From Oscillospiraceae bacterium (GTDB lineage Bacteria; Bacillota; Clostridia; Oscillospirales; Ruminococcaceae): 11,701 bases of DNA. The notes beneath the pieces are model-generated. The model was not told the origin of the DNA. It was given only the letters and a program-made list of their open reading frames with translations, and ran no database searches. Each line of letters opens with the position of its first letter. Position 1 is the stretch's first letter. Below are positions 3 through 11,701 of this stretch, piece by piece. A program made the translations under genes and the position numbers. The stretch spans positions 1-11,701 of the forward strand of contig JAGAKC010000309.1 of assembly GCA_017848155.1 (NCBI GenBank), written 5' to 3'.

Positions 3-416
3 GTTGTATTTGTCATGATGAAGAAAAACAAGGGACAGACAGGTGCAGCGCCGGCACGCGCAGCAGCACCTTCAAAGGCAGCCGCTCCTGTAAGCAACAG
101 CTCCGTAACACCTGTTATCATCTGCGAAAAGGGACTTCTTGCAGGGCGCTCGTTCCCGATCGGTGCAAGCGTTATTATCGGCAGAAATACTCAGAAATGC
201 GGCATCTGCTTCCCTGTAGACGCAAAGGGCGTATCGGGAGTTCACTGCGAGATACGCAAGGCTGCAAACGGGTTCGAGATAATCGACTGCGGCTCCTCCT
301 ACGGCACTACTTTAGGAAGCGGTCAGAAGCTTACGGCAAACGTCCCTGTTGTTATCCCTAACGGAACATATTTTATGGTAGGAAGTGCAGAGCAGATCTT
401 CCAGATCAAATACTGA
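3..416 (+). CDS. FHA-domain protein, C-terminal part (5' truncated by window edge)
   Basis: Cytosolic phosphothreonine-peptide reader, probably the C-terminal module of a longer membrane protein. The first ATG pair is at 15 and 18, but the frame stays open to the window edge (Val-Val-Phe-Val just before the Met pair) and no Shine-Dalgarno precedes 15. The hydrophobic run followed by KKNK looks like the end of a membrane helix. Numbering from the Met at 15, residues 10-33 are an Ala/Pro-rich linker and ~34-133 are the FHA domain. It shows the family signature GR (56-57), SGVH (74-77) and SSYGT (94-98), where the usual Asn before GT is Tyr. It lies 2 nt upstream of a PP2C phosphatase and in the same operon as a Ser/Thr kinase, the classic partners of FHA domains. 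FHA identity is confident; the true start lies outside the window, and an upstream von Willebrand-type domain would be a guess. Confidence 0.85.
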   Translation, partial: VVFVMMKKNKGQTGAAPARAAAPSKAAAPVSNSSVTPVIICEKGLLAGRSFPIGASVIIGRNTQKCGICFPVDAKGVSGVHCEIRKAANGFEIIDCGSSYGTTLGSGQKLTANVPVVIPNGTYFMVGSAEQIFQIKY

Positions 417-418
417 TT

Positions 419-1663
419 ATGAATATTGATTTTTACAGCTATTCGGGACTCGGCGGCAGACCCGTAAACGAGGATAGCTGCATCGTAGGAAACGGCTGCT
501 ATATCGTATCTGACGGTCTTGGCGGTCACGACAACGGAGAGTTGGCGTCGGGTGCAGCCACACGTTATATATCGGAGAATTTCGCCGTCCCTGATCTTTC
601 AAACGAATATATCTCAGGTCTTATTCTGGGTGCGAACGAAGCGGTAAAGCAGCACGGCGAGGGCGGTAAGGCAACACTTGCCGCACTGTTCACTGACGGA
701 AATATCATAAGGATAGACAACATAGGCGACAGCAGGATCTACTATTTTCGAGGCGGAAAGATCCTGTTCCGTACCAAGGATCACTCTGTTTGTCAGGCGT
801 CCGTTGATATGGGAGAAATGACCGATATCGATGTGCGCAACAGTCCTGACCGTTCGGGTCTGTTCAAGGTGCTGGGTGACAGCACTCCGCTGAAGCTGCC
901 GAAGCCATATGACCTTATCGAGCCTATAAACGCTGACGCATTCCTGATATGCAGCGACGGCTTCTGGGAGAACATTTACGAGGCTGAAATGGAAGCGGAT
1001 CTGCTTAAGTCCGCAAGTGCAAGGGAATGGCTCGACTATATGCTTAAACGGCATTTTTTGCGTGCACAGGACCAAGGCGACAATTTTACCGCAATATGCG
1101 GAATTATCAGCTCGCCGAAAACAGCACCGCTTTATGACGGGACACCGTCTGCAAAGCCTGTTTCCGACATACCGAGCACGATTGCGATCACAGAAAGTGC
1201 GGTCAAGCCATCTATGCCTATGCATTGCAAGATCATTGTAGCTGTCTGTGCATTTATAGCTGTGGCAGCTGTATCGGTGGCGGTCACACTGCTTGCTGTT
1301 AAAAAGAGCGAGGATATACCGGTGTCTTCTCCGACTTCGGAAAGTCAGTCCGCTGAAGATATCGTGACAACAGAAAAGAGCACACCGCCCGAGGAAAGTG
1401 CTGCTACCGAAGTCAGTGAGATCTCCGGGAGCAGCGAGCCCTCTGAGGAAAGCACGCCTCCCGAAGTCGAAGATACATCCGAAAGTGGCGAGACTTCTGA
1501 GGTCAGCGAGACTACTGAAGTCTATGTGACAGCTGAAGTCAGCGAGAACGTCGAAAGCGGCGAGCCCTCAGTGGAAACAACGAGCCTGCCGGAAGGACCT
1601 GACTCGCCGTTTTCGCCAAATGAGCCTGACAGTATCCCGCCCCTTGAAACATCATTATTGTAA
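419..1663 (+). CDS. PP2C-family Ser/Thr protein phosphatase with membrane anchor and acidic extracellular tail
   Basis: Metal-dependent phosphatase expected to remove phosphate from Ser/Thr residues modified by the neighbouring kinases. The PP2C domain covers residues ~1-230, with RPVNED (14-19), DGLGGH (32-37), a GDSR-x-Y segment followed by DHS in the middle, SDGFW (179-183; Asp180) and DN (221-222). Asp19, Asp32, Asp180 and Asp221 are the expected metal-site acids. A single hydrophobic helix follows at ~272-294, flanked by Lys271 and Lys295-Lys296. The last ~118 residues are a Ser/Thr/Glu/Pro-rich low-complexity tail with repeated SEVSE-type units, predicted to lie outside the cell. The start follows the FHA stop by 2 nt with no strong ribosome site, consistent with translational coupling. 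Bacterial PP2C partners of Hanks kinases are often soluble, so the anchor and long tail are notable. The phosphatase call is secure; the topology is inferred. Confidence 0.93.
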   Translation: MNIDFYSYSGLGGRPVNEDSCIVGNGCYIVSDGLGGHDNGELASGAATRYISENFAVPDLSNEYISGLILGANEAVKQHGEGGKATLAALFTDGNIIRIDNIGDSRIYYFRGGKILFRTKDHSVCQASVDMGEMTDIDVRNSPDRSGLFKVLGDSTPLKLPKPYDLIEPINADAFLICSDGFWENIYEAEMEADLLKSASAREWLDYMLKRHFLRAQDQGDNFTAICGIISSPKTAPLYDGTPSAKPVSDIPSTIAITESAVKPSMPMHCKIIVAVCAFIAVAAVSVAVTLLAVKKSEDIPVSSPTSESQSAEDIVTTEKSTPPEESAATEVSEISGSSEPSEESTPPEVEDTSESGETSEVSETTEVYVTAEVSENVESGEPSVETTSLPEGPDSPFSPNEPDSIPPLETSLL

Positions 1664-1687: not shown

Positions 1688-3943
1688 ATGATCGAAATAA
1701 ATGGCAAGCATATGTGTGAAAGCTGCTTCTGTGAAACGACAGACGGCGCATTCTGCATGAACTGCGGATATAATCCGAATCAGACTGCCGTAGATCCTAC
1801 AATGCTTAAGCCGGGAAGCGTTCTTCTCGGAAAATATGTTGTCGGACGTGTAATAGGCAAGGGAGGATTTGGAGTTACTTATGTGGCATACGATGTCACC
1901 ACGCAGAAAAAGGTAGCGATAAAGGAATATTTCCCCTATGGCGTGGCGCTCCGTGCCCCCGGTACAACTACGGTGTCGGTTTCGTCGATGGACAATGCCG
2001 AGGCATTCAGAATGGGTGCGGAAAAGTTTTACAACGAGGCGAAAATGGTATCCCGCTTTAACGGCAACCCCAATATCGTTGGAGTTCACGAGTTCTTCTA
2101 CGAAAACGATACAGTATACTTTGCGATGGAATACCTGCAGGGTCATACGCTCAAGGAGCATATTAAGATCCATGGTGTACTGCCTTCTGCACAGGCATTG
2201 TTCATTATGAATAACGTGTCCAATGCGCTTATGGCAGCACACAGCGCAAATGTACTGCACCGCGATATCTCCCCCGACAATATCATTCTCTGCGATAACG
2301 GCAATGTAACGCTGATAGATTTCGGAGCGGCAAGGCAGGTCGTGGCAGAGCATTCGCAGAGCTTTTCGGTCATCTTAAAGCCCGGCTTTGCTCCGCTTGA
2401 GCAGTATCAGAAAAAGGGCAATCAGGGTCCCTGGACGGATATCTACTCGCTGGGTACGACCATCTATCATGCACTGACAGGCGATATCCCCGAGGACCCC
2501 ATGTCCCGTATCGATGACGATGAGGAGTTCAGCTCCAATGCGTACGGTATCGAGCCTGAGCTCTGGGCAGTCATACAGAAAGCGACCCAGCTCAAGGTGG
2601 AGGACAGATACAGCGATGTGTTTATGCTCAGGAACGACCTCAGCCGTATTTCGTACAAGCCCGAGCCTGTGATAGTTCCGACCGAGAGCGAAGATGAGAA
2701 AATGCCGCAGTTCCAGACCGCTGTTCCTTACGGAATGACGCAGATGGCAGCGGCTGCCGCTCCTGTGCCTGCCGCAGCTGTTCAGCCAGTGCCTGCCGCA
2801 GCTGTTCAGCCTGTGCCTGCGGAGAAAAAGAAGTTCGATTTCGGCGAATTCTGCAAAAAGAATACCAAAGCCGTTATAGGCGCAGCGGCGGCGCTTGTTC
2901 TGGTTATTGCTGCGGCGATCCTGATCCCCAATATGTTAAAGACAGATGAAAAGCCCCCGTATAAAAATAGCGGCTATTCCGATAAGGTCGACCGGGAAGA
3001 TGATGACACAAGCAGTTCGTCTTCGCAGAAGGAGCTTGTTAATAAAAATAACACTTTGGCAAAATACCTAACCGACCTGGTGACAAATGAAACTACGAGA
3101 TTGGAATCGGAAGGGTATAGCTTCCCACAGGGTGTGATAGCGGTTGCCATGACAGTTGATAACAACGGCAAATGGTCTGTTACTGCAGCTGATGAAGAAC
3201 TTAATACGATACCCCGCTTTGAAGACAAGTTATACTTTTCTCTCAGAAATATATTCAGTGACGTCAAAGATCGTGCAATGATGGTTATGATCTACAACAG
3301 AAAAGTTACATTCGCTGCCGTTCAGCAAGGTACAGATGTAAACTACTTAGCAGAGTTTTTAAAGCCGCTGATCGACGACTATGGAAATCTCTCACAGAAC
3401 CATGAATGGAACGGCAAGACCGCAGGTGTTACCAAAGACGGAATAATAATCGGCACATATCCTGTTGTTGCCTTAGGCATCTCGTCTTCACGGTCAGATG
3501 CGTTAAGTGTTGATGAAATGAACGACAGAGCGGTTGAGATACACAATGCACTCAGCGATTCGATCAGCGAATTTACGTATTATAACAGCCCTGATTATGA
3601 TTATATGTGGATGCAGATATCAGTTGATTCGTCGGGGAATTGGGTTTTCGACGAAACGACAGGATGTTATAAAGATAGCGGGGTTCAGGAAAACTTTGAA
3701 GAATGTGTGAATAGTGATCTTAAAGATTCGTTATCCGGATACAGTGATATGGTCATCTATGCGTCTTATTGGGAAGGTAAGGTAACAGCGGTCTATTGTG
3801 CTTGTAATACTGATTTTGCTACACTTGCCGAATTTACAGGGCAATTAGATGATACGGGATATGATGAGTGGAATGGAAAAACAGCAGGCGTTACCAAAAA
3901 CGGATTGGTAGTAGGCACATATCCTGTTATCGGCTTAAAATAA
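1688..3943 (+). CDS. Membrane Ser/Thr protein kinase with N-terminal zinc ribbon and duplicated extracellular module (kinase 1)
   Basis: Hanks-type kinase. A Cys cluster (C10-x2-C13 and C23-x2-C26) likely forms a small zinc ribbon. The kinase domain runs ~50-325: IGKGGFG loop (56-62), VAIK Lys79, helix-C Glu117, HRD Asp193 with Asn198, DFG Asp211, an activation segment rich in Ser (223, 225, 227), and an APLEQY P+1 region. The catalytic-loop Lys typical of Ser/Thr kinases is Ser195 (HRDISPDN). A Pro/Ala/Val linker contains a 24-bp tandem repeat. A membrane helix at ~395-414 is preceded by Lys residues, so the kinase is inside. The outer part (~440-751) contains two homologous ~145-residue modules, each ending in EWNGKTAGVTK (573 and 727) and a GTYPV strand. 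GAGG at 1676-1679 lies 8 nt before the ATG. The gene is 24 nt after the phosphatase and ends at a strong terminator. Kinase identity is secure; the sensed ligand is unknown. Confidence 0.95.
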   Translation: MIEINGKHMCESCFCETTDGAFCMNCGYNPNQTAVDPTMLKPGSVLLGKYVVGRVIGKGGFGVTYVAYDVTTQKKVAIKEYFPYGVALRAPGTTTVSVSSMDNAEAFRMGAEKFYNEAKMVSRFNGNPNIVGVHEFFYENDTVYFAMEYLQGHTLKEHIKIHGVLPSAQALFIMNNVSNALMAAHSANVLHRDISPDNIILCDNGNVTLIDFGAARQVVAEHSQSFSVILKPGFAPLEQYQKKGNQGPWTDIYSLGTTIYHALTGDIPEDPMSRIDDDEEFSSNAYGIEPELWAVIQKATQLKVEDRYSDVFMLRNDLSRISYKPEPVIVPTESEDEKMPQFQTAVPYGMTQMAAAAAPVPAAAVQPVPAAAVQPVPAEKKKFDFGEFCKKNTKAVIGAAAALVLVIAAAILIPNMLKTDEKPPYKNSGYSDKVDREDDDTSSSSSQKELVNKNNTLAKYLTDLVTNETTRLESEGYSFPQGVIAVAMTVDNNGKWSVTAADEELNTIPRFEDKLYFSLRNIFSDVKDRAMMVMIYNRKVTFAAVQQGTDVNYLAEFLKPLIDDYGNLSQNHEWNGKTAGVTKDGIIIGTYPVVALGISSSRSDALSVDEMNDRAVEIHNALSDSISEFTYYNSPDYDYMWMQISVDSSGNWVFDETTGCYKDSGVQENFEECVNSDLKDSLSGYSDMVIYASYWEGKVTAVYCACNTDFATLAEFTGQLDDTGYDEWNGKTAGVTKNGLVVGTYPVIGLK
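2762..2820 (+). repeat. 24-bp in-frame tandem repeat in kinase 1 linker
   Basis: Two copies (2762-2785 and 2786-2809), differing at one base, plus a partial third, encode the octapeptide PVPAAAVQ. The repeat lies in the flexible juxtamembrane linker of kinase 1. Its length is a multiple of three, so copy-number change would alter linker length without shifting frame. Confidence 0.8.
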
Positions 3944-4060: not shown

Positions 4061-6436
4061 ATGATCGAGATAAACGGAAAACAATTATGCGAAAGCTGCT
4101 TCAAGGAAATCAAAGGCGACAAATGCGGCTGTGGCTTTGATTCATTGGAGGGCGTGCTTGATTCGTCACTGCTTACTCCGGGAACAGTGCTTGCAGACCG
4201 CTATGTTATCGGACAGGTCATAGGAAAGGGTGGCTTTGGCACAACATACCTTGCTTATGACGCACTTGTATGCAAAAAGATCGCCATTAAGGAATATTTC
4301 CCATACGGCGTTGCACAGCGCACCTCTGAAAGCTCCGACGTATCTGTTTTGTCCGAGGACAACGCACAGGCTTTTGAGCTTGGTGCACAGAAATTCTATA
4401 ACGAAGCAAAAATGGTATCGCGCTTTAACGGAAATCCCAGTATTGTGACTGTTTTTGACTGCTTTTACGAAAACAACACCGTATATATGGCGATGGAACA
4501 CCTTAACGGCTGTACATTAAAGGACTATATCCGAGAGTACGGAGTTCTCAGCGTTCCGCAAGCACTGCATGTCGCAAAAAGCGTTGTGAGCGCACTTGTG
4601 GTTGCACACAGTGCCGCAATACTTCATCGTGATATTTCGCCCGAAAACATTATCGTGAGCAACGACGGAAACATAAAGCTTATTGATTTCGGTGCGGCAA
4701 GACAGGTCGTGGCAGAGCACTCACAGCGCTTTTCCGTTATATTAAAGCCCGGCTTTGCACCGCCTGAGCAGTACAGCAAAAAGGGAAATCAGGGTGCGTG
4801 GACGGACGTTTATTCTGTCGGAACAACGCTTTATTACATGATAACGGGAGATATTCCGGAAGACCCCTCCGCACGCTTTGACAACGACGACACATTTAAC
4901 GAAAACAAGTTTGACATCGCTCCCGCTCTGTGGGAGGTCATCACCAAGGCAACAAAGCTTAATGCAGAGGACAGATATCAGGACGCTTATGAGCTGAAAA
5001 AGGCGCTTGACCTTATCCCTGTCGATGCTGAGCCGCTTGTTACTCCCGAAGCTGCGGAGCAGGTGGACGAGGAAGCCCCGTCCCAGCAGGAGAACCGTTC
5101 CGAGCTGACGGTCTCCATAAAGAAGCACAAGCCAAAGCAGAGCTTCTGGAAAAAGCACCGCCGCACGTTTATTGAGGTGGTCTGCGGTCTGCTGGTGGTG
5201 GCACTTGTAATTCCGCTTGCAGTTAAAGCGTTCAAGCCTGTCGTTACCGACGCTCCGCAGTCGGGTTCAACTTCCGATACGTCACAGCCGACAGCGAGCG
5301 GCTCTGTTGCGGCGATAGGTAGCAAGCCTACCCTTGAGGATATAAACTACTCGGGCCCGCTGTATACAGGGCTTGATGCAGGTGAACGTCAGCTTTACAG
5401 CGATATCTACTACGGGCTTATCAAGGACGAAAAGGAAATTATTCTTGACACGCTTGTATACACGATAGACGATATAGATTATGTTTATAGCTGCGTTCTT
5501 AACGAACAGCCCAAACTTGTCCATACAAGAGGATATAACGTAAACTATAACGACCTGAACAACAACAAGCAGCCCGACCCCGACGAGTATGTAAACTCTA
5601 TCACTCCGATATATTCGGGCATCGACAGAATGGAATACAACAATTACATATATGAGTATTTAAAGGATAATCTACATCATTTCTATTTAACAATAACAAA
5701 TGTAGATAATAATAAATATGGTGAGGTAGAGGCACTTAAATATTTGTATGACGATATCGCACTTAACACGACTGTATTATCAGGATATAATACAAGACCT
5801 TCCGCTTCTACTGCTTACGGTGCGATGATCGACAAATTCGCAGATGCCCTTGGCATAGCAAGGGCAATATGCGATATAGCACAGCGCTTGGGATTTGAAA
5901 GTTATGTACACGAGGGGTACGAAGCTGATGGCGACAAGATCGCATGGTGCCGTGTGAAGATTGATGATACTTGGTATAAGATAGACACTTATGCTGCGGC
6001 ATATTATGTACAGAATTGCATAACAGCGGTGCCGTTTGCAGAGGACGAACTGAGTCATTATAACTTTTTTATTATGGATGCGCCGTATATGGATACTTCA
6101 CTAATAGACGAACGACAGCTCCATCTCTGGGACCTTGCCGGCAAGGTATACGAAACAGAATACGATACTATGTATTATTTCAAGGAACATCTCGGTGTGA
6201 TGTATCATTGTAATTTACCCGAAAACAATTATGCCGCACTTCTGGAAGAAACAAAAAAACAGATTGACCAGAACAGCAATAAAGTCGATATCTATATATT
6301 GTCGCTTTTTGTGGATTCGTTGTGGGCAATAATGGAGGAGCAATACATCTCCGACCTTTCCGAGAAATACGGAATTACCATCACAGGCTTCACGGGCGAG
6401 TATGCCGATGATTGTCTGCACATTACGCTGACATAA
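4061..6436 (+). CDS. Membrane Ser/Thr protein kinase with degenerate transglutaminase-like extracellular domain (kinase 2)
   Basis: Paralogue of the preceding kinase. The N terminus opens with the same MIEINGK and CESCF motif but closes its metal-site-like cluster as C22-G-C24. The kinase domain (~48-322) has the IGKGGFG loop, AIK Lys77, Glu115, HRDISPEN with Asp191, DFG Asp209 and an APPEQY segment. Ser193 replaces the usual catalytic-loop Lys. The activation segment is nearly identical to kinase 1. A basic stretch and membrane helix (~370-388) lead to a ~400-residue outer region. Residues ~560-645 resemble the transglutaminase-like fold (an AYG-x-M helix start, RLGFESYV, then VKIDDTWYKID), yet the expected catalytic Cys aligns with Ala596 and the His with Ile627; only Asp642 is kept. 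The domain therefore probably binds rather than cuts or cross-links. The kinase call is secure; the ectodomain assignment rests on pattern recognition and is moderately sure. Confidence 0.93.
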   Translation: MIEINGKQLCESCFKEIKGDKCGCGFDSLEGVLDSSLLTPGTVLADRYVIGQVIGKGGFGTTYLAYDALVCKKIAIKEYFPYGVAQRTSESSDVSVLSEDNAQAFELGAQKFYNEAKMVSRFNGNPSIVTVFDCFYENNTVYMAMEHLNGCTLKDYIREYGVLSVPQALHVAKSVVSALVVAHSAAILHRDISPENIIVSNDGNIKLIDFGAARQVVAEHSQRFSVILKPGFAPPEQYSKKGNQGAWTDVYSVGTTLYYMITGDIPEDPSARFDNDDTFNENKFDIAPALWEVITKATKLNAEDRYQDAYELKKALDLIPVDAEPLVTPEAAEQVDEEAPSQQENRSELTVSIKKHKPKQSFWKKHRRTFIEVVCGLLVVALVIPLAVKAFKPVVTDAPQSGSTSDTSQPTASGSVAAIGSKPTLEDINYSGPLYTGLDAGERQLYSDIYYGLIKDEKEIILDTLVYTIDDIDYVYSCVLNEQPKLVHTRGYNVNYNDLNNNKQPDPDEYVNSITPIYSGIDRMEYNNYIYEYLKDNLHHFYLTITNVDNNKYGEVEALKYLYDDIALNTTVLSGYNTRPSASTAYGAMIDKFADALGIARAICDIAQRLGFESYVHEGYEADGDKIAWCRVKIDDTWYKIDTYAAAYYVQNCITAVPFAEDELSHYNFFIMDAPYMDTSLIDERQLHLWDLAGKVYETEYDTMYYFKEHLGVMYHCNLPENNYAALLEETKKQIDQNSNKVDIYILSLFVDSLWAIMEEQYISDLSEKYGITITGFTGEYADDCLHITLT

Positions 6437-6448
6437 CATATCCGTAAT

Positions 6449-6485
6449 AAAAAAATCTCCTTCCCGTAAAAAGGAAGGAGATTTT
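6449..6485. terminator. Bidirectional terminator between convergent genes
   Basis: AAAATCTCCTTCC (6452-6464) pairs perfectly with GGAAGGAGATTTT (6473-6485) around an 8-nt loop. Read on + it ends in four T's. Read on - it ends in a longer T-run supplied by the A's from 6446. It lies 12 nt beyond the kinase 2 stop and 19 nt beyond the end of the opposite-strand HTH gene, so it can serve both. Confidence 0.88.
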
Positions 6486-6504
6486 GCGTTTAAGCTCAAA
6501 CTAC

Positions 6505-6903
6505 TCAAACTACCTCGCTGTACCAGATGAAATCCACAGCATCGTAATATTCCATATTGTGATTAATTGCATAGAACACTCTTGCGTCTACAAGATTTCT
6601 GACATAAAGCGGTGATTTTCCTGCAAGCTGAAGCAGGTAGTTCATCTCGTCTATGTCAAGCTTCAGTATCAGGCTTAGCTGGATGATAAAATTTCTGGTG
6701 GGAGTGCGGCTTCCGTTAAGCACCTGATAACCATAGTTGCGGTCTACATTTATCATTCTGATAATGTCAGACTTTTTCTTTTTCTGGTTGTTGATGAGCT
6801 TGTTGAGAATATCGGAAAGCTGAGGAGGTGCTTCGTTTAATACCATACATTCGTCAAATGCACCGCGCTTTTTCAGCTTTTCTTCAAGCTCTACTGTCAG
6901 CAA
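6505..6903 (-). CDS. Small XRE-like helix-turn-helix DNA-binding protein
   Basis: Likely transcription regulator of ~132 residues. The centre resembles an XRE/Cro-type HTH: KKKSDIIRMINVDRNYGYQ followed by VLNGSRTPTRN, where the NGSRTP turn is typical of the recognition-helix end. A Leu-rich helix (EMNYLLQLAGK) and an aromatic C terminus ending FIWYSEVV follow. I prefer the TTG start at 6903 (protein beginning LTVELEEK, read as Met). AAGGGG lies 8 nt upstream of it, whereas the longer reading from a TTG at 6942 has no ribosome site. No ligand domain is seen. The gene converges on kinase 2 and shares its terminator. Its promoter faces the hairpin-repeat cluster. It could be the protein acting at the palindromic operator candidates downstream, but nothing in the sequence proves this. 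Family assignment is fairly sure, the start less so. Confidence 0.8.
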   Translation of the reverse strand: MLTVELEEKLKKRGAFDECMVLNEAPPQLSDILNKLINNQKKKKSDIIRMINVDRNYGYQVLNGSRTPTRNFIIQLSLILKLDIDEMNYLLQLAGKSPLYVRNLVDARVFYAINHNMEYYDAVDFIWYSEVV

Positions 6904-6946
6904 AATAAACACCCCTTGTCGCAAGAAATCACATTTTGTCAATATT

Positions 6947-6955
6947 AGTATACCA
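6947..6955 (-). promoter_or_regulatory. Extended -10 promoter candidate for the HTH gene
   Basis: The minus strand reads TGGTATACT, an extended -10 (TG-N-TATACT), about 45 nt upstream of the preferred TTG start. No good -35 is visible; a CTGACG hexamer at 15-bp spacing is poor. The motif coincides with the left edge of the repeat cluster (ATACCATG on +), so the repeat may supply the promoter. Confidence 0.4.
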
Positions 6956-7006
6956 TGAAAGCAAACGCGTCAGCGGTTGTGTGCCGACAGGCACTGACGG
7001 CGGCAA

Positions 7007-7075
7007 CCGTTCAATAAAAGCAGCGCAATTGCGAAGCAATTGAAGTAAGCTGTTTTTATCATACCATGACCGCAA
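7007..7075. repeat. 69-bp hairpin repeat, copy 1
   Basis: The outer stem 7014-7024 pairs with 7049-7059 (11 pairs, one G-T). The nested hairpin CAATTGC-GAA-GCAATTG spans 7026-7042. It is 65/69 identical to copy 2 in the same orientation, 122 bp downstream. Confidence 0.85.
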
Positions 7076-7128
7076 AGCGAAGCTTTGCAAGCTGCGTAAG
7101 CAGCGTTGCCGCACGAGCGGCAGGTCAG

Positions 7129-7197
7129 CCGTTCAATGAAAACAGCGCAATTGCGAAGCAATTGAAGTAAGCTGTTTTCATTATACCATGACCGCAA
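7129..7197. repeat. 69-bp hairpin repeat, copy 2
   Basis: The outer stem 7135-7146 pairs with 7171-7182 (12 perfect pairs). The nested hairpin CAATTGC-GAA-GCAATTG spans 7148-7164. Relative to copy 1, an A-T pair is replaced by G-C (7138/7179), a G-T wobble by A-T (7142/7175), and one base at 7182 adds a twelfth pair. All four differences therefore preserve or improve the stem. Confidence 0.85.
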
Positions 7198-7212
7198 GGG
7201 CATGGTATGATC

Positions 7213-7298
7213 GTCCGATACGCAGGAAGCAGATCTTTGATCTGCGTATCTGCGAGGACACTGAAATAAGGATATAATACACGCTTGCGTTTATTATA
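7213..7298. other. Further hairpins beyond the repeat cluster, no gene
   Basis: GTCC (7213-7216) can pair with GGAC (7256-7259). Inside, GATACGCAG (7217-7225)/CTGCGTATC (7242-7250) competes with GCAGATC (7229-7235)/GATCTGC (7239-7245). A separate near-palindrome pairs TATAATACACGC (7273-7284) with 7287-7298 at 11 of 12 positions. No T-run follows any of these, so they do not look like terminators. From 7299 to 7423 I see only AT-rich sequence with nothing I can assign. Confidence 0.5.
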
Positions 7299-7423
7299 CC
7301 ATACATTTTATATTATTGCAATAGGCAGAGAAAATTTGTATTATTCGCTTGCCGATCTCTGAATAACTATACGCATATAAGCGAACAAGCCCTTTGTACG
7401 CTCCGATAAAACCTTCCGAAAAA

Positions 7424-7475
7424 CAATTATAATTGCTAATCAATATACCAAACGCATTTCAGACCGTGCTATACT
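7424..7475 (+). promoter_or_regulatory. Promoter with upstream palindromic operator, copy A
   Basis: The perfect 12-bp palindrome CAATTATAATTG (7424-7435) is followed by CTAATCAATATACC, a weak -35-like ACCAAA (7447-7452), a 17-bp spacer and a good -10 TATACT (7470-7475). The predicted transcript start is near 7482, ~86 nt before the lipoprotein ATG at 7568. The same block recurs in ungapped register at 11084-11135. The poor -35 plus conserved upstream palindrome suggests activator-dependent expression, which is an inference. Confidence 0.7.
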
Positions 7476-7490
7476 TAAGTTACAATAAAG

Positions 7491-7544
7491 CACCGAACGC
7501 ATGGTTCGGGGGAGAAATAAAAGCAAAACGATATCGGTTCGGTG
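7491..7544 (+). promoter_or_regulatory. 5' leader with two competing pairings
   Basis: CACCGAAC (7491-7498) can pair either locally with GTTCGG (7504-7509; 6 pairs, 5-nt loop) or with GTTCGGTG (7537-7544; 8 pairs). The two states exclude each other. The distal partner ends ~23 nt before the start codon and 7 nt before the ribosome site (AAGGGAAG, 7552-7559). A switch or mRNA-stability role is possible but unproven. No known riboswitch class is recognised. Confidence 0.35.
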
Positions 7545-7567
7545 TTAAGTGAAGGGAAGAATAAAAT

Positions 7568-9289
7568 ATGAAAAAAAGTATTTTAAGCGGACTGCTTGCG
7601 GCGGTAATGATGCTGAATACGTCGGGCTGTATTGCGACAATAAAGAAGTCCGAAAAAACTACTTCGGCGGCAACGTACTCAACTACCACCACAGTCACAA
7701 CCGCAATCACTTCGACTACTGCAACGACTACCACTGTTGCCGAAGCAGAAGATGAGCCTGTTGAATCAACAAAGCCCGTTGAATCAACAAAGCCTGCTGA
7801 TACTACGACCGCAAAGCCTGTTGAAACGACCGGACCCGTTCCCGAGGAAAAACCTGTCGAAACGATACAGAGCTACGGTGCATATAAAAATGTCACAATA
7901 ACCTATAATCCCAAAACAAACCGTTATGTTATTGATTGGGACGACGTACCCGGTGGACGAGGATACAGGCTGGACGTTGACCGATACGGATATACCGATA
8001 ACGGCGGTATATGTGACGAGCTCCGCCAAACAAACGGCGGCACTTTTAAAGCGGAGCTTGTAAAGCCGGGCGAGGTGGTCTATGTGAAAATAAGATGCAC
8101 CGTTTATGAGGGCCGCCCTAATGAAAAGGAAGAGATCTTCGAGGGTAAATTTATGATTCCCGACCCTGCAGACTATGCAAAACCCGATGTACCGCTTGGG
8201 GAATTTACAGGAGAGCCTGATATAACCTGGGATGGCAGATATATCTATGTAAGTACATTGTCGGTTCCCGGTACAGAGAAGTATTGTCTGAGCATAGACA
8301 GTGAGCGTTATACGGATAACGGCGATCTGTGTACCGAAACCAAAGAAATATCACCTTGGGACGATTCTGAAATAATAACTCTGAGTTCATTTTTGGATCA
8401 GACTCTTCCGCAATATGTATATATAAGAGTAACTGCTTACAAAGGAGGGAAAAGCGCCAAAGCAGAGTTCAGATATAATACATATACAGAAAAATTATTC
8501 GGTGATGCGAAATATATTGATGGCAAAACTATTATCGTATCTATTTTCGCTGACGACCCCACAACAAAATGGACTGACTCCGCTGCTGACAAGCAGATGA
8601 CAGAGGACGTCCGGGAAAGTATGCGCCATGCAGTTGAGTGGCTGGAGAGTTCCACAGCAAAGTACGGAGCGAATTCGGAATTTATCTGGGACTGGAGAAA
8701 AGACAGCAGGCTTAAACTGACAGCATCATTTGGTGTAGAACTTGATATCCCCGAACACGATAGAAGCTTTGAAGTCACTGATGGAAATGAATCGTCCGTC
8801 AATAATGATCTGGCTGAAAAGTATTCTGCACAGAAAGATTATATTGAAAACATTGAAAGCAGAGCAGATGAGCTGAAGAAAAAATACAATGCAGATAATA
8901 TCGTTTATATTTACATAATAAATACTGATGGAGAGAATCAGGCAAACTGTCATGCCTACTCATACTCGCGTTACAGATCAGAAACAGAATTTATTAATAT
9001 TTATACAAAAGAGCATGGACGTTCCCACAAGGCAAACACCTATGCCCATGAGATACTGCATCTGTTCGGAACACATGACCTTTATTGTGAAAGTGACATT
9101 ATTCCACAGTCGTACGTTGACCATCTCGACGCTAACGGCTGTAACAGCATTATGTATTACGGTCAATCCAAAGATATTATTACAAGGGAATTTACCGACC
9201 TTGAAGCGTACTATACAGGTCTTATCAACTATCACGAGGACGTGGAGAAGTGGGGACTCGGCAAGAGTGATTTTTATGTCGGCCACTGA
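7568..9289 (+). CDS. Secreted lipoprotein with two beta modules and a zincin-type metallopeptidase domain
   Basis: Predicted cell-surface lipoprotein protease. A type II signal peptide (MKK, Leu/Ala core) ends in the lipobox TSGC with Cys21. Residues ~30-100 are a Thr/Pro/Glu linker with an 18-bp tandem repeat. Two homologous beta-rich modules follow (~107-198 and ~217-310), both containing YTDNG-x-x-C-x-E, and may be fibronectin-III-like. The C-terminal ~250 residues carry HEILHLFGTHDLY with His494, Glu495 and His498. This fits HExxHxxGxxD, so Asp504 may be the third zinc ligand. SIMYYG with Met529 follows and resembles a metzincin Met-turn. The layout recalls HExxHxxGxxD peptidases such as M6, but I do not recognise the exact family. 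The ribosome site AAGGGAAG is 8 nt before the ATG. The next gene follows after 20 nt and shares the same N-terminal cassette. Lipoprotein and zincin calls are good; the substrate is unknown. Confidence 0.85.
   Translation: MKKSILSGLLAAVMMLNTSGCIATIKKSEKTTSAATYSTTTTVTTAITSTTATTTTVAEAEDEPVESTKPVESTKPADTTTAKPVETTGPVPEEKPVETIQSYGAYKNVTITYNPKTNRYVIDWDDVPGGRGYRLDVDRYGYTDNGGICDELRQTNGGTFKAELVKPGEVVYVKIRCTVYEGRPNEKEEIFEGKFMIPDPADYAKPDVPLGEFTGEPDITWDGRYIYVSTLSVPGTEKYCLSIDSERYTDNGDLCTETKEISPWDDSEIITLSSFLDQTLPQYVYIRVTAYKGGKSAKAEFRYNTYTEKLFGDAKYIDGKTIIVSIFADDPTTKWTDSAADKQMTEDVRESMRHAVEWLESSTAKYGANSEFIWDWRKDSRLKLTASFGVELDIPEHDRSFEVTDGNESSVNNDLAEKYSAQKDYIENIESRADELKKKYNADNIVYIYIINTDGENQANCHAYSYSRYRSETEFINIYTKEHGRSHKANTYAHEILHLFGTHDLYCESDIIPQSYVDHLDANGCNSIMYYGQSKDIITREFTDLEAYYTGLINYHEDVEKWGLGKSDFYVGH
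7757..7792 (+). repeat. 18-bp tandem repeat in lipoprotein linker
   Basis: Two copies, 7757-7774 and 7775-7792, differing by one base, encode PVESTK twice. They lie in the wall-spanning Thr/Pro-rich linker, and the length preserves frame. Confidence 0.85.
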
Positions 9290-9309
9290 CATTTACAGAT
9301 GGAGGATTC

Positions 9310-10548
9310 ATGAAGAAAAGGATTTTAACTGTATTGCTTGCATCGGCAATGGTGCTGAATATGACAGGCTGCATTGCGACAATAAAGACTCCCGAAAGAA
9401 CTGCTTCGGCGGCAACGCACTCAACGACCACCGCAGCCACAACTGCAACCGCTGCAACTACTGCAACTACTGCAACGACTACCACTGTTGCTGAAACAGA
9501 AGATGAGCCTGTAGAAGCCACAACGACCAATGAAGCCGTTTGTACAGACGATGATCATGACTTCTGGCAGGCAGCGGCTAATATAAACGATTGTACGACG
9601 TTTTGCAATGTCTGCCACAAAAAATTCACTCCTGCCAAGCCTGTCGAAACAACATCCCCCACCGTAACTATCAGGGTCACTGCTGAGATCAATGACATTG
9701 AAAAGATATGTGGTCTTAAGTCTGATGTAGAAACAGATATCAAGGCTTGCGCTGTCGATGTGTTTGACGAGCATAACCCTTACGATGTTGTTTACGATTA
9801 CGGTGAAAATTACAACGCTTATGCAGATGCCTGTAACTGGGATCTGGTCTTTGATGCTGATTACTATATCGAAGCGTTCCCTATGCTCGCTACTCTTTAT
9901 CAAAATGACAAGGCTCGTCTTCTTGAGCACTTCCGTACTGTTGGTGTTCACGAAGGCCGTCAGGGCTCTGCGGATTTCAACGTAAAGGCTTATATGGATA
10001 ATTGCGATCCTGCAATTTGCAATATATTCGATAATAATTATGAAGGCTATTATTTCTACTATATGCTTAATTACGACACCGAAAAGTCTGTAAAGACAAC
10101 TGGTCCCGATTACGAAATCCAGTACAGGCAGATCATGACCAAATGTCAGGCTGACGAGCTTGCAGGTGTTAATATGTATCGTGGCGAAGTTTCTGTTGCT
10201 GATATTGCGTTTAACAGCGAACTTGCTGCAGTAGCCAATTACCGTGCATGGACTAACGCACATGACGACTGGAGAGGTCACGACTGGACACATGAATTTG
10301 AAAATCACAATTTCATCCTTGATTTATGCAAGCGTTATAATGCGGCTTCTTTTGCTGAAAATACATCTTATAATCTCAAATTCTGCAGAACTTATGGTCA
10401 TACTTCATACAGCAGTTATCGCGATTCTGAATCTCATTATGAAGCCATGGTCAATGCAAAATATGATCTCATCGGCCTCTCCAATATTTACTATTCCCGA
10501 GACGATACTTTTTCAAACCACTTCCAGACTTTCCTTGATCTCAAATAA
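9310..10548 (+). CDS. Secreted lipoprotein with EGR-type repeat and CAP/SCP-like C-terminal domain
   Basis: Predicted surface lipoprotein. The signal peptide ends in MTGC (Cys21). The first ~65 residues closely copy the upstream lipoprotein, including the Thr-rich stretch and the EDEPVE end. A small motif follows with His83, Cys95, Cys99 and Cys102 (C-x2-C), possibly metal-binding. Residues ~177-245 match a repeat seen in many bacterial surface proteins (FDADYY, then HF-x3-G-x2-EGR at ~206-217). Residues ~278-412 look like a CAP/SCP domain: VN-x-YR, a His-rich segment (His324, His328, His333), AEN with Glu350, and SESHY with His376 followed by a Gly/aromatic strand. CAP proteins have varied roles, so none is assigned. 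GGAGG is at 9301-9305, only 4 nt before the ATG. It is 20 nt after the protease gene and very likely in its operon. The CAP call is moderate. Confidence 0.8.
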   Translation: MKKRILTVLLASAMVLNMTGCIATIKTPERTASAATHSTTTAATTATAATTATTATTTTVAETEDEPVEATTTNEAVCTDDDHDFWQAAANINDCTTFCNVCHKKFTPAKPVETTSPTVTIRVTAEINDIEKICGLKSDVETDIKACAVDVFDEHNPYDVVYDYGENYNAYADACNWDLVFDADYYIEAFPMLATLYQNDKARLLEHFRTVGVHEGRQGSADFNVKAYMDNCDPAICNIFDNNYEGYYFYYMLNYDTEKSVKTTGPDYEIQYRQIMTKCQADELAGVNMYRGEVSVADIAFNSELAAVANYRAWTNAHDDWRGHDWTHEFENHNFILDLCKRYNAASFAENTSYNLKFCRTYGHTSYSSYRDSESHYEAMVNAKYDLIGLSNIYYSRDDTFSNHFQTFLDLK

Positions 10549-10584
10549 AGAAAGATCCGTCTTTTATTGAAAGGAGCATAAAAA

Positions 10585-11031
10585 ATGGGAAACAAATCAC
10601 TTAAGGGTGATCAGAATAAAGAATCAACGGCTAAAAACACTATATTGGAACTGGTAAGCGTATTATTAAAGCTTGCAGGAGCAGCTCTGATGATCATAGC
10701 TCTACTGTGCGCCTGGGCAGACAACCTCGGTTTAGGGATAACTTTGCTATGGATAGGGGTTGCGCTCCAGATTGTCGCAGAGCTTGTTGACCCCAAATCC
10801 AATTCCAAGGCTTTGTCTGAATCAGATCCTGCTCAGGAAACTGTATCTGGCTCTGCGCCTGTTCCCACACCTGCGCCTGCTCCCGTAGCAGTACCTGCAC
10901 AGCCCGAGCAAGTGAGGATCTCCTGCGGATACTGTGGACAGCCTATGCTTATTCCCCCACAATGCGGAACAGTTAAAATAACCTGTCCCAAGTGCGGCGG
11001 CAGTTTTATATATAATAGTAACAACAGTTGA
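10585..11031 (+). CDS. Small membrane protein with two helices and a C-terminal zinc ribbon
   Basis: Not a family I can name. Residues 1-20 are polar. Two hydrophobic helices lie at ~23-45 and ~48-66, separated by a very short turn, so both termini are probably cytosolic. A Pro/Ala/Val-rich linker (~88-108) leads to a zinc ribbon with C114-x2-C117 and C134-x2-C137; the first knuckle reads CGYCGQPMLIPP. The gene downstream at 11202 has the same plan and a near-identical first knuckle, so the two are paralogues. AAGGAG (10571-10576) is 8 nt before the ATG. The gene starts 36 nt after the CAP lipoprotein, so it is probably the last gene of the 7568 unit. No clear terminator follows. The ribbon might bind zinc, nucleic acid or a protein partner. 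Confidence 0.8.
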   Translation: MGNKSLKGDQNKESTAKNTILELVSVLLKLAGAALMIIALLCAWADNLGLGITLLWIGVALQIVAELVDPKSNSKALSESDPAQETVSGSAPVPTPAPAPVAVPAQPEQVRISCGYCGQPMLIPPQCGTVKITCPKCGGSFIYNSNNS

Positions 11032-11056
11032 CAATAAATAAACTACGATGTAAAAG
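11028..11056 (+). promoter_or_regulatory. Weak alternative promoter overlapping a stop codon
   Basis: A perfect TTGACA (11028-11033) overlaps the stop codon of the preceding gene and is followed after 17 bp by TAAAAG (11051-11056), a 4/6 match to the -10. It is weaker evidence than the conserved block at 11084-11135 and may be chance in AT-rich DNA. Confidence 0.3.
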
Positions 11057-11083
11057 CTTTATATGTGTTTGAAAGCCAAAACG

Positions 11084-11135
11084 CAATTATAATTGCTAAT
11101 TAATATACCGAAAGGATCTCGTGGTATGTTATACT
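11084..11135 (+). promoter_or_regulatory. Promoter with upstream palindromic operator, copy B
   Basis: The palindrome CAATTATAATTG (11084-11095, extending to 14 bp at 11083-11096) is followed by CTAATTAATATACC, ACCGAA at the -35 position (11107-11112), a 17-bp spacer and TATACT (11130-11135). Every element sits exactly 3660 bp from its counterpart in copy A. The spacer is not conserved, as expected of a real promoter. The predicted start near 11142 leaves a ~60-nt leader before the gene at 11202. Confidence 0.7.
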
Positions 11136-11201
11136 TGAGCTACAGTAGAACGCTGAAAAAGCTGACAGCTTCAATCGATCGAAAATCAAAGGAGAATTAC
11201 T

Positions 11202-11701
11202 ATGACAGTCAAGGAATTAAAAACAAGATGTAAGGAAGAGTTCAAGGCAAAAGAGCGCGGAAAGTGGATAGCAAGCTGGGTTTTTATATTACTGGCACTG
11301 GCTCATATCGTTTTTATGATCATACAACTTATAACGCTGATCGTTTCAGGCGTTGAGTTTGTATTGAATCCCGTAGGTATCATTTTCAATCTTGTCCTTT
11401 GGGCAATTTCAGGTACTATATCCAATAAAATATACAAGACCGTGAGAAAATACAAAAAAAGCGGCGAGTACACGAACATTCCCTATGATCACCCGCACAG
11501 TCTTATGTATCAGGGTCAGCCGTATCCGTTTGATAGGCCTGCTCCAATTGCTACGCCTGCGCCTGCTCCTGCTCCTGCGCCTGCGCCTGCTCCTGCTCCT
11601 GTAGCCGCTCCTGCTCCTGCGCCTGCATCCGCTCCCGTACCTGCTCCCCAGCAGGTAACGTTTTCCTGCAGACAGTGCGGACAGAATATGCTGCTTCCCC
11701 C
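11202..11701 (+). CDS. Membrane protein with two helices, Pro-Ala linker and zinc ribbon (3' truncated by window end)
   Basis: The frame is open to the end of the window (166 codons), so the C terminus is missing. The ATG at 11202 follows AAAGGAG by ~8 nt. A basic, amphipathic N terminus (MTVKELKTRCKEE) precedes a helix at ~23-48 and a second at ~55-73, then a Lys-rich segment. A long Pro-Ala linker (~112-150) leads to CRQCGQNMLLPP (Cys156, Cys159), where the window cuts the gene. Architecture and knuckle match the 148-residue protein upstream, so this is a paralogue and two more Cys are expected just beyond the edge. It has its own conserved promoter block. Function is not recognised; both proteins may present a cytosolic ribbon at the membrane. 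Confidence 0.8.
   Translation, partial: MTVKELKTRCKEEFKAKERGKWIASWVFILLALAHIVFMIIQLITLIVSGVEFVLNPVGIIFNLVLWAISGTISNKIYKTVRKYKKSGEYTNIPYDHPHSLMYQGQPYPFDRPAPIATPAPAPAPAPAPAPAPVAAPAPAPASAPVPAPQQVTFSCRQCGQNMLLP
11556..11648 (+). repeat. Hexanucleotide Pro-Ala coding repeat
   Basis: Seven consecutive CCTGCK units (11556-11597) encode Pro-Ala dipeptides, followed by further imperfect units to ~11648. The six-base unit keeps frame, so slippage would change linker length rather than switch the gene off. Confidence 0.8.

Follow-up and report, generated by a model that had tools for sequence, protein, structure and literature searches.

The window analysed here, an 11,701-nt stretch of an Oscillospiraceae bacterium (positions 1 to 11,701 of contig JAGAKC010000309.1, assembly GCA_017848155.1, forward strand), carries two promoter regions that share a palindrome and much of the sequence around it, which raises the question of whether one regulator reads both and, if so, which protein it is and what else it controls. 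A preliminary description, made from the letters of the window, had proposed a new regulon and named an XRE-like helix-turn-helix (HTH) protein encoded at 6505-6903 as a candidate regulator. We find the underlying observation correct, the regulon idea right in kind and the guess at the regulator well supported by comparison. It is likely, in our judgement, that the sites are promoters controlled by this HTH protein, which would act as an activator and as the DNA-binding partner of the adjoining Ser/Thr kinases; the sites, their architecture, the gene linkage, the predicted fold and the target classes are all read from sequence. The comparison covered the source genome (G000; 2.39 Mb in 498 contigs, 77% complete; more sites may be absent from the assembly), a genus set of 43 genomes, a family set of 297 (292 outside the genus) and an order set of 375; the relatives named below are metagenome-assembled genomes.

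Two shared blocks and a third copy

The elements of the two sites are as follows, with positions given relative to a predicted +1 on a scale that places the first base of the -10 at -12 (R1 is a DNA model introduced below):

7424..7475, plus strand: site 1 operator-promoter block, preceding the lipoprotein gene at 7568; predicted +1 near 7482; R1 43.5 bits
7424..7435, no strand: palindrome CAATTATAATTG of site 1, centre about -52, seen as such within this genome alone
7434..7445, no strand: family-wide dyad position of site 1, centre about -42, degenerate here (TGCTAATCAATA)
7447..7449, plus strand: near-invariant ACC of site 1, 20 bp ahead of the -10
7467..7475, plus strand: extended -10 of site 1, TGCTATACT
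11084..11135, plus strand: site 2 operator-promoter block, preceding the gene at 11202; predicted +1 near 11142; R1 38.3 bits
11084..11095, no strand: palindrome CAATTATAATTG of site 2, centre about -52, seen as such within this genome alone
11094..11105, no strand: family-wide dyad position of site 2 (TGCTAATTAATA)
11107..11109, plus strand: near-invariant ACC of site 2
11127..11135, plus strand: extended -10 of site 2, TGTTATACT

The two blocks had been described as gapless and nearly identical, and they are: 7424-7452 and 11084-11112 align over 29 columns (instead of the 28 counted earlier) with mismatches at 7441 (C/T) and 7450 (A/G) alone, and both contain the perfect 12-bp palindrome. 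In 200 Markov-1 shuffles of the window there was no pair of 29-mers differing at two positions or fewer; the real window holds further such pairs, in the two kinase genes and in a 72-bp repeat at 7004/7126. TATACT follows at 7470-7475 and 11130-11135, and from there to 7491 the five differences (7477, 7480, 7485, 7488 and 7490) are transitions, all of them, as had been stated. The window has no Rfam match at gathering score and no tRNA. A sigma-70 scan of 6400-11400 gave 11 promoter-like sites against 11.6 in shuffles; none has the -35 and -10 of the preliminary description, and one overlaps site 1 in another register (7458-7486).

A scan of the genome and its relatives, the check that the preliminary description had proposed, revealed a third own-genome copy (G000:C482:6918; one mismatch to the pattern, with zero matches for a reversed-pattern control) as well as sites in relatives, so the block is not confined to the two loci of the window. 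With at most three mismatches, the exact 26-base pattern matched only the own genome and G005 (2/43 genus genomes; 1/297 family genomes). This scarcity at first looked like a sign that the block was peculiar to these loci; it is explained by the greater divergence of the related promoters, as footprinting made visible (see below). The next start codon after the third site lies 88 bp past the predicted +1 and opens the gene for P0001, a protein with a CxxC motif and an FHA-like region that scores 18.4, just below the Pfam cut-off of 20.7; a PP2C phosphatase gene (above the Pfam cut-off) follows. The site in G005, the fourth to match the exact pattern, likewise lies ahead of a P0001 orthologue. 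Three relatives (G005, G010 and G017) carry orthologues of both P0001 and the window HTH protein on a single contig, 8-9 kb from each other. Judged by the intact relative in G005, C482 terminates inside a trypsin-like protease-transmembrane-FHA protein, and the window starts in the C-terminal part of the same protein; the two contig ends have no exact overlap, and we infer the join. The third site would then very probably stand at the head of an operon that continues into the window, in the order FHA-like, PP2C, protease-FHA, PP2C, kinase, kinase; after this operon come the HTH gene, on the opposite strand, and then sites 1 and 2. A second model, R2, also gives three sites in the own genome. 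The proposed regulon thus stands in that the unit recurs beyond two loci and in relatives; its own-genome set is small, the three sites very probably forming one cluster.

The genes of the window, in order, are:

15..416, plus strand: FHA domain, C-terminal part of the trypsin-like protease-transmembrane-FHA protein, with the N-terminal part on C482 (L004 8469-9350)
419..1663, plus strand: PP2C-like phosphatase (Pfam 21.4 bits, just under the cut-off of 24; NCBIfam 102.9 bits, cut-off 230)
1688..3943, plus strand: second Hanks-type Ser/Thr kinase, with N-terminal CxxC pair motifs
4061..6436, plus strand: Hanks-type Ser/Thr kinase, with N-terminal CxxC pair motifs, convergent with the HTH gene
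6505..6903, minus strand: XRE-like HTH protein of 132 residues, candidate regulator; TTG start by alignment, the frame opening at 6942
7568..9289, plus strand: site 1 target gene, a predicted lipoprotein with the motif HEILHLFGTHD
9310..10548, plus strand: second predicted lipoprotein of the site 1 unit, with a weak CAP domain (E 0.0039)
10585..11031, plus strand: predicted membrane protein (by eye) with a C-terminal CxxC-CxxC, the last gene before site 2; no Pfam match
11202..11701, plus strand: site 2 target, a predicted membrane protein (by eye) with a proline-rich linker and a CxxC, cut by the contig end

The start codon behind site 1 lies about 86 bp past the predicted +1 and has a Shine-Dalgarno-like sequence. 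We take HEILHLFGTHD to be a zincin-like HExxHxxGxxD motif; for the same lipoprotein Pfam gives a weak M78 match (E 0.064). A strong stem-loop, terminator-like, lies at 6452-6485 between the convergent kinase and HTH genes, and 72-bp direct repeats (7004-7075 and 7126-7197, 93% identical), each with a CAATTGC/GCAATTG hairpin that is terminator-like on the minus strand, lie between the HTH gene and site 1.

Could sites 1 and 2 be alike merely because a promoter was recently copied together with a gene cassette, with no common regulator? The transcribed bases after the -10 are common to sites 1 and 2 (where only transitions separate them) and absent from the third site and from G005. The lipoprotein genes at 7568 and 9310 are 81% identical over 167 nt, with a signal peptide and a Thr-rich linker in common, and G005 (L044) has by blastp no relative of the site 1 and 2 genes beside its HTH gene. 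Against this, the same frame recurs in further species and genera and, in the own genome, at a third promoter whose flanks are unrelated. Copying is therefore a very unlikely account of the element as a whole, although sites 1 and 2 themselves may have originated that way. The preliminary description had read the likeness as a signature of selection. The operator-promoter unit does recur elsewhere; the likeness beyond TATACT is more likely a recent copy than the work of selection, because the third site and G005 do not have it. The spacer had been called unconserved; it is so between sites 1 and 2, but sites 1 and 3 share 13 of its 17 bases. That the block recurs in the genome might also suggest a mobile or repeated element spread by transposition, an idea we find scarcely credible: each of the three own-genome copies occupies a promoter position ahead of a start codon, their flanks differ, and among them there is no copy inside genes or with shared terminal repeats.

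Architecture of the promoters in relatives

More diverged promoters were sought by a matrix scan of related loci, orthologous and paralogous (footprinting). The same promoter was found there with more changes (YARTTAGTATTRCTAAYTTGCATACCAMAAACG...TGnTATAMT), and the common frame that emerged consists of a dyad of about 12 bp (TRCWAA/TTWGYA) centred near -42, ACC, 20 bp and TGnTATAMT, without a -35. An alignment of 15 sites (A1) from the one genus yielded the sequence-only DNA model R1, whose training loci had been selected for carrying HTH or FHA homologues; one of 36 sites (A3) yielded R2; and symmetry was analysed over 38 aligned sites (31 strong and 7 weak).

In these 38 sites the most symmetric centre was column 16.5, with 68% complementary arm pairs compared to 58% when partners were dealt at random, and paired changes occurred at columns 12/21 and 14/19 (25 of the 38 sites each, against 16.9 and 15.7 expected); TGCAAATTTGCA, TACAAATTTGTA and TACTAATTAGTA are examples of such dyads. 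A dyad at the palindrome singled out earlier (column 6.5) is 36% complementary, exactly as in shuffles (36%), and was rejected as the general operator. CAATTATAATTG as such occurs at the three own-genome sites only, with TAATTATAATTA in its place in G005 and TARTTAGTATTR or unrelated letters at the other aligned sites. The preliminary description had placed the operator near -52: across relatives the strongest symmetry and the paired changes centre near -42 instead, while in the own genome CAATTATAATTG is perfect and the -42 dyad degenerate, in the window in its proximal half. The contact in the window may lie at either position.

ACC is present in 34 of the 36 sites, ACC and -10 are exactly 20 bp apart in 34, and the -10 is TATAAT or TATACT in 35; this conservation is partly built in, because ACC and -10 belong to the models by which most of the sites were chosen. 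TG lies one base ahead of the -10 in 27 sites and directly adjoins it in the other nine. The -35 had been called poor, suggesting an activator, and over the 36 sites it is no better than random: the best TTGACA match at a distance of 16-18 bp averaged 2.14, against 2.61 for random letters. A dyad near -42 at a fixed distance, with an absent -35 and an extended -10, resembles, to judge from these letters, the architecture of a promoter activated by a protein that touches RNA polymerase. Compared with class II activator-dependent promoters, the 36 sites show a centre near -42, a fixed distance (34/36) and a random-level -35, but the window dyads have 3 and 4 of 6 arm pairs and positions are counted from a predicted +1.

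An HTH protein that binds the operator as a repressor of the extended -10 promoter, with the kinase relieving repression, would account for part of these data. Many XRE proteins act as repressors, operator and promoter overlap, and in G008 and G007 a site lies directly ahead of the HTH gene itself, as is common for autorepression. The fixed 20 bp between ACC and -10 and the absent -35 fit a polymerase-touching activator better, since a repressor site could move, and we regard repression as somewhat unlikely. The activator reading can be put as follows. An HTH dimer would bind the dyad near -42, across the place where a -35 would be expected (the contact in this lineage is possibly extended or shifted upstream to CAATTATAATTG), and would recruit RNA polymerase to the extended -10 promoter, so that three cluster promoters would come under joint control: those of the FHA-like/PP2C/protease-FHA/PP2C/kinase/kinase operon, of the lipoprotein-lipoprotein-CxxC unit and of the next CxxC protein. 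The kinases, the PP2C phosphatases and the FHA proteins would set HTH activity upon a cell-surface signal; that this activity may be set by phosphorylation is suggested by a gene neighbourhood of kinases, PP2C and FHA.

The HTH protein, the linked kinases and the genome scans

The predicted fold of the candidate regulator comprises a five-helix XRE-like domain followed by a C-terminal helical hairpin (helices at 104-128). The structure matches shown for residues 24-97 were mostly lambda-repressor-like DNA-binding domains at middling Z, and the protein was found to have the five-helix lambda-repressor-like DNA-binding domain of XRE (Cro/CI-type) factors; helix 55-62 is its predicted recognition helix (RNYGYQVLNG). 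The family gave weak matches to generic Pfam HTH models and none near cut-off in NCBIfam. Nearly all aligned homologues conserve a Thr near the N terminus and the Thr/Ser of a P-[TS]-R turn, the latter being common in XRE proteins generally.

Homologues of the HTH protein occur in 31 of the 43 genus genomes (E<=0.001) and, by profile, in 46 of the 297 family genomes (E<=1e-12; 32 of the 126 genera sampled). At 65 of the 72 loci examined, a fetched subset of the listed homologue places, a Ser/Thr kinase domain lies within 3 kb of the HTH gene (33 in the same direction, 22 convergent, 10 divergent); among the other seven, the HTH gene is within 2 kb of the end of the stretch at four, the kinase is at 3.7 kb at one, and L143 and L147 are plain misses. 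The kinase linkage and the linkage of sites described below bear out the XRE-like protein as candidate regulator, as do the sites immediately ahead of the HTH gene in G008 and G007 and ahead of kinase genes in other genera. Operator letters may also point to it. In G004 and G016, which have two close HTH paralogues each, one local site is TACTAACnAGTATACC, and a trans site in the same genome carries the same half-sites; the candidate operator letters of the G004 paralogues (contigs C65 and C51) are TCCTAATTTGCAGACC and TACTAACGAGTATACC. Four loci with distant homologues and altered recognition helices, a small set, show other dyad letters in the same frame, for example CTAC..GTAG, ACGCA..TGCGT and GTCC..GGAC. 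At L215, near a distant HTH-kinase pair, two GTGTCC..GGACACC-like dyads are placed in this frame (5634-5665 and about 4197). Another class of operator, TACC/CTAC..GTAGACC, was seen at L258 6439 (near an HTH-kinase pair), at L259 7726 and L101 6968, and before zinc-ribbon genes at L262 6234 and L264 2197.

R1 found seven new sites of at least 30 bits in the 43 genus genomes. By downstream gene call, predicted lipoproteins follow the sites in G004, in G016 and in G033, whose contig breaks off after 40 residues. The two sites in G017 precede genes for a zinc-ribbon protein (G017:C104) and for a kinase (G017:C222), and the one in G029 precedes a gene run of secreted protein, kinase and HTH; in G036 the gene call is ambiguous. 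Four of the 29 weaker non-training matches listed for the genus (14.4-30 bits, the lower bound being the analyst's choice) are no more than 5 kb away from an HTH homologue. A binomial in which the target makes up 0.5% of the genome gives P 1.4e-5 for this; it used 53 of 54 HTH places, a fragment in G011 being excluded. Over the 292 out-of-genus family genomes R1 gave five matches at E<=1e-3, of which four fall at the gene of a Ser/Thr kinase whose N terminus carries CxxC pairs: directly ahead of it in G239 and G159, and between it and a divergent exported-protein gene in G328 and G234. The HTH gene follows the kinase in G328, G239 and G159; in G234 the contig stops inside the kinase. Counted by genome, a match was present in 3 of 8 with a close HTH homologue compared to 2 of 284 others (Fisher P 1.3e-4). 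In a separate contig collection, ten non-training loci gave 36.2 bits (L120), 36.0 bits (L121), 25.8 and 13.0 bits (L135), one match below 10 bits each (L125 and L134) and none (L128 and L130-L133); L135 coincides with G328 (L162) and is not counted as separate evidence, and L134 corresponds to G044 (L200).

R2 matched in 25 of the 43 genus genomes at E<=0.02 and, order-wide, in six out-of-genus genomes at E<=0.001. We inspected 28 matches: 22 of the 26 non-training genus matches, one new match in G044, and one each in G264, G337, G346, G392 and G502. Nine lie no more than 0.6 kb from a gene for an HTH protein or a kinase, and 19 farther away; the latter include all five of the last-named genomes, and eight of the remaining 14 precede, by eye, a zinc-ribbon, lipoprotein or exported-protein gene.

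Several results weigh against control by the HTH protein, in addition to the partly built-in conservation of ACC and -10. Some concern the operator: centre 8.0 (43% complementary against 32% shuffled) has an excess equal to that of centre 16.5, at lower symmetry, and the -42 dyads of the own genome have only 3, 4 and 3 of 6 arm pairs. Others concern the linkage. Inside the genus, the co-occurrence of R1 sites with HTH homologues is partly circular, given how the training loci were chosen, and only one of the seven strong non-training sites lies within 5 kb of a homologue. The fifth out-of-genus match (G095) precedes a peptide deformylase-like gene and was taken as chance (though some 5 kb further on there is a PP2C-kinase pair of a different type). 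Among 20 HTH loci fetched from outside the genus, 5 with close and 15 with distant homologues, 18 gave no R1 match at E<=5 and the remaining pair scored 16.8 and 8.9 bits, because of which we assign the operator described here to a subset of the HTH-kinase pairs. Five of the six out-of-genus R2 genomes have neither kinase nor HTH gene in the fetched stretch, and we treat these matches as background. Finally, G033 has a 44.9-bit site, yet the genome search found no HTH homologue there.

Such results raise the alternative that the element is read by a different regulator, such as an alternative sigma factor or a transcription factor not linked to these genes, and that the HTH-kinase pair is merely co-regulated. 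The six strong trans sites away from HTH homologues and the site in G033 speak for it, as does the position of ACC outside the dyad. However, four of the five blind out-of-genus matches lie at a kinase gene, and at three of these the HTH gene is seen as well; the element has dyad symmetry and a -10 of the sigma-70 type; and the trans sites of G004 and G016 carry the half-site letters of one HTH paralogue's local site. We therefore judge another regulator to be unlikely, and the activating HTH protein is the reading retained below.

Target genes, known systems and meaning

For 39 sites the most plausible downstream gene was called by script. By simple patterns, 14 of the products have a lipobox and 14 a zinc ribbon (27 either), against 8.0% and 10.8% in a background of 425 reading frames, which includes spurious frames and makes the contrast rough. 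The other 12 are P0001 and four relatives, the HTH protein of G008, the site 2 protein, a protein with one CxxC (G016:C157), secreted proteins (G029 and G328) and two sites without a convincing gene (G003 and G278). The sites are thus mostly followed by genes for lipoproteins, zinc-ribbon proteins, FHA-like proteins and kinases, with the HTH gene once, and these gene calls support the earlier view of the targets as envelope or membrane proteins. Pfam detected transglutaminase-like, MORN, BspA-type leucine-rich repeat (LRR) and double zinc ribbon domains in selected targets, and LRR domains in four of five full-length kinases checked from other loci; the double zinc ribbon was below cut-off in two checked kinases and absent from the rest, so for kinases the label 'zinc ribbon' rests on the N-terminal CxxC pairs in the letters.

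How does the proposed circuit compare with known systems? In HipBA and HigBA an XRE-type DNA-binding protein is encoded beside its partner and has a dyad operator. HigA and HipB are among the weak sequence matches of the HTH protein, and HigA is among its structure matches; the partner here, however, is a Hanks-type kinase rather than HipA or HigB (Pfam lists no HipA family at E<=1e-3, and the window kinases match Pkinase PF00069 at 127 and 134 bits), and the sites also precede other genes. At the lambda PRM promoter, CI binds an operator centred near -42 over a poor -35 and activates by touching polymerase. The lambda-repressor-like fold (1lmb is among the structure matches) and the operator near -42 are shared, whereas here the genes are linked to a kinase and phosphatase and not to a phage switch, and the promoter has a near-invariant ACC and an extended -10. 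Hanks-type kinases with a PP2C phosphatase are also known in Firmicutes as the PASTA-type PrkC/StkP, from which the window kinases differ by their scores (163.4 and 189.7 bits against the NF033483 cut-off of 450) and their N-terminal CxxC pairs. The window kinases were also compared with the kinases of anti-phage systems (PD-T4-6, MADS Mad6, Stk2): PADLOC lists PD-T4-6 and Mad6 for them, its best matches centring on the kinase part and its models having no cut-offs, and the MADS6 model of NCBIfam, with a cut-off of 460, gave 131.8 and 136.6 bits.

In Mycobacterium tuberculosis the Ser/Thr kinase PknH controls the transcription factor EmbR in a manner tied to FHA recognition (PMC4601284). The likeness is a kinase-controlled transcription factor linked to FHA, such control being proposed in the present circuit. 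The difference is that EmbR is an OmpR/SARP-type protein with its own FHA domain, while the 132-residue XRE-like protein would work with FHA or FHA-like regions on separate proteins (at E<=1, Pfam gave no FHA match for the 14 HTH homologues searched). In Xanthomonas citri the transmembrane Hanks-type kinase PknS acts on transcription via a partner, EcfK, which is an alternative sigma factor and not an XRE protein (PMC13147305). Bacterial Ser/Thr kinases have been portrayed as few per genome and as having pleiotropic instead of exclusive targets (PMC4601284). Searches of an open-licence library showed no title or abstract opening with a description of the HTH family. What emerges is a putative kinase-linked XRE-like regulator with its own operator, known here by sequence comparison.

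A wider reading, which we put forward tentatively, is that the Oscillospiraceae possess a family of pairs of a Hanks kinase and an XRE activator, resembling two-component systems without histidine kinases. Each paralogue would have its own dyad letters (TGCA..TGCA, TACTAA..TTAGTA, CTAC..GTAG, ACGCA..TGCGT and GTCC..GGAC) within a common frame of dyad, ACC, 20 bp and TGnTATAAT, and the circuit, which would govern surface lipoproteins and zinc-ribbon membrane proteins, would be completed by PP2C and FHA proteins. A conserved kinase-regulator pair with a recognisable operator would offer a direct read-out, in which regulon members are recognised by their promoters and a regulator paralogue by its operator letters, and a circuit of this large, mostly uncultured gut family would become testable in a reporter strain.

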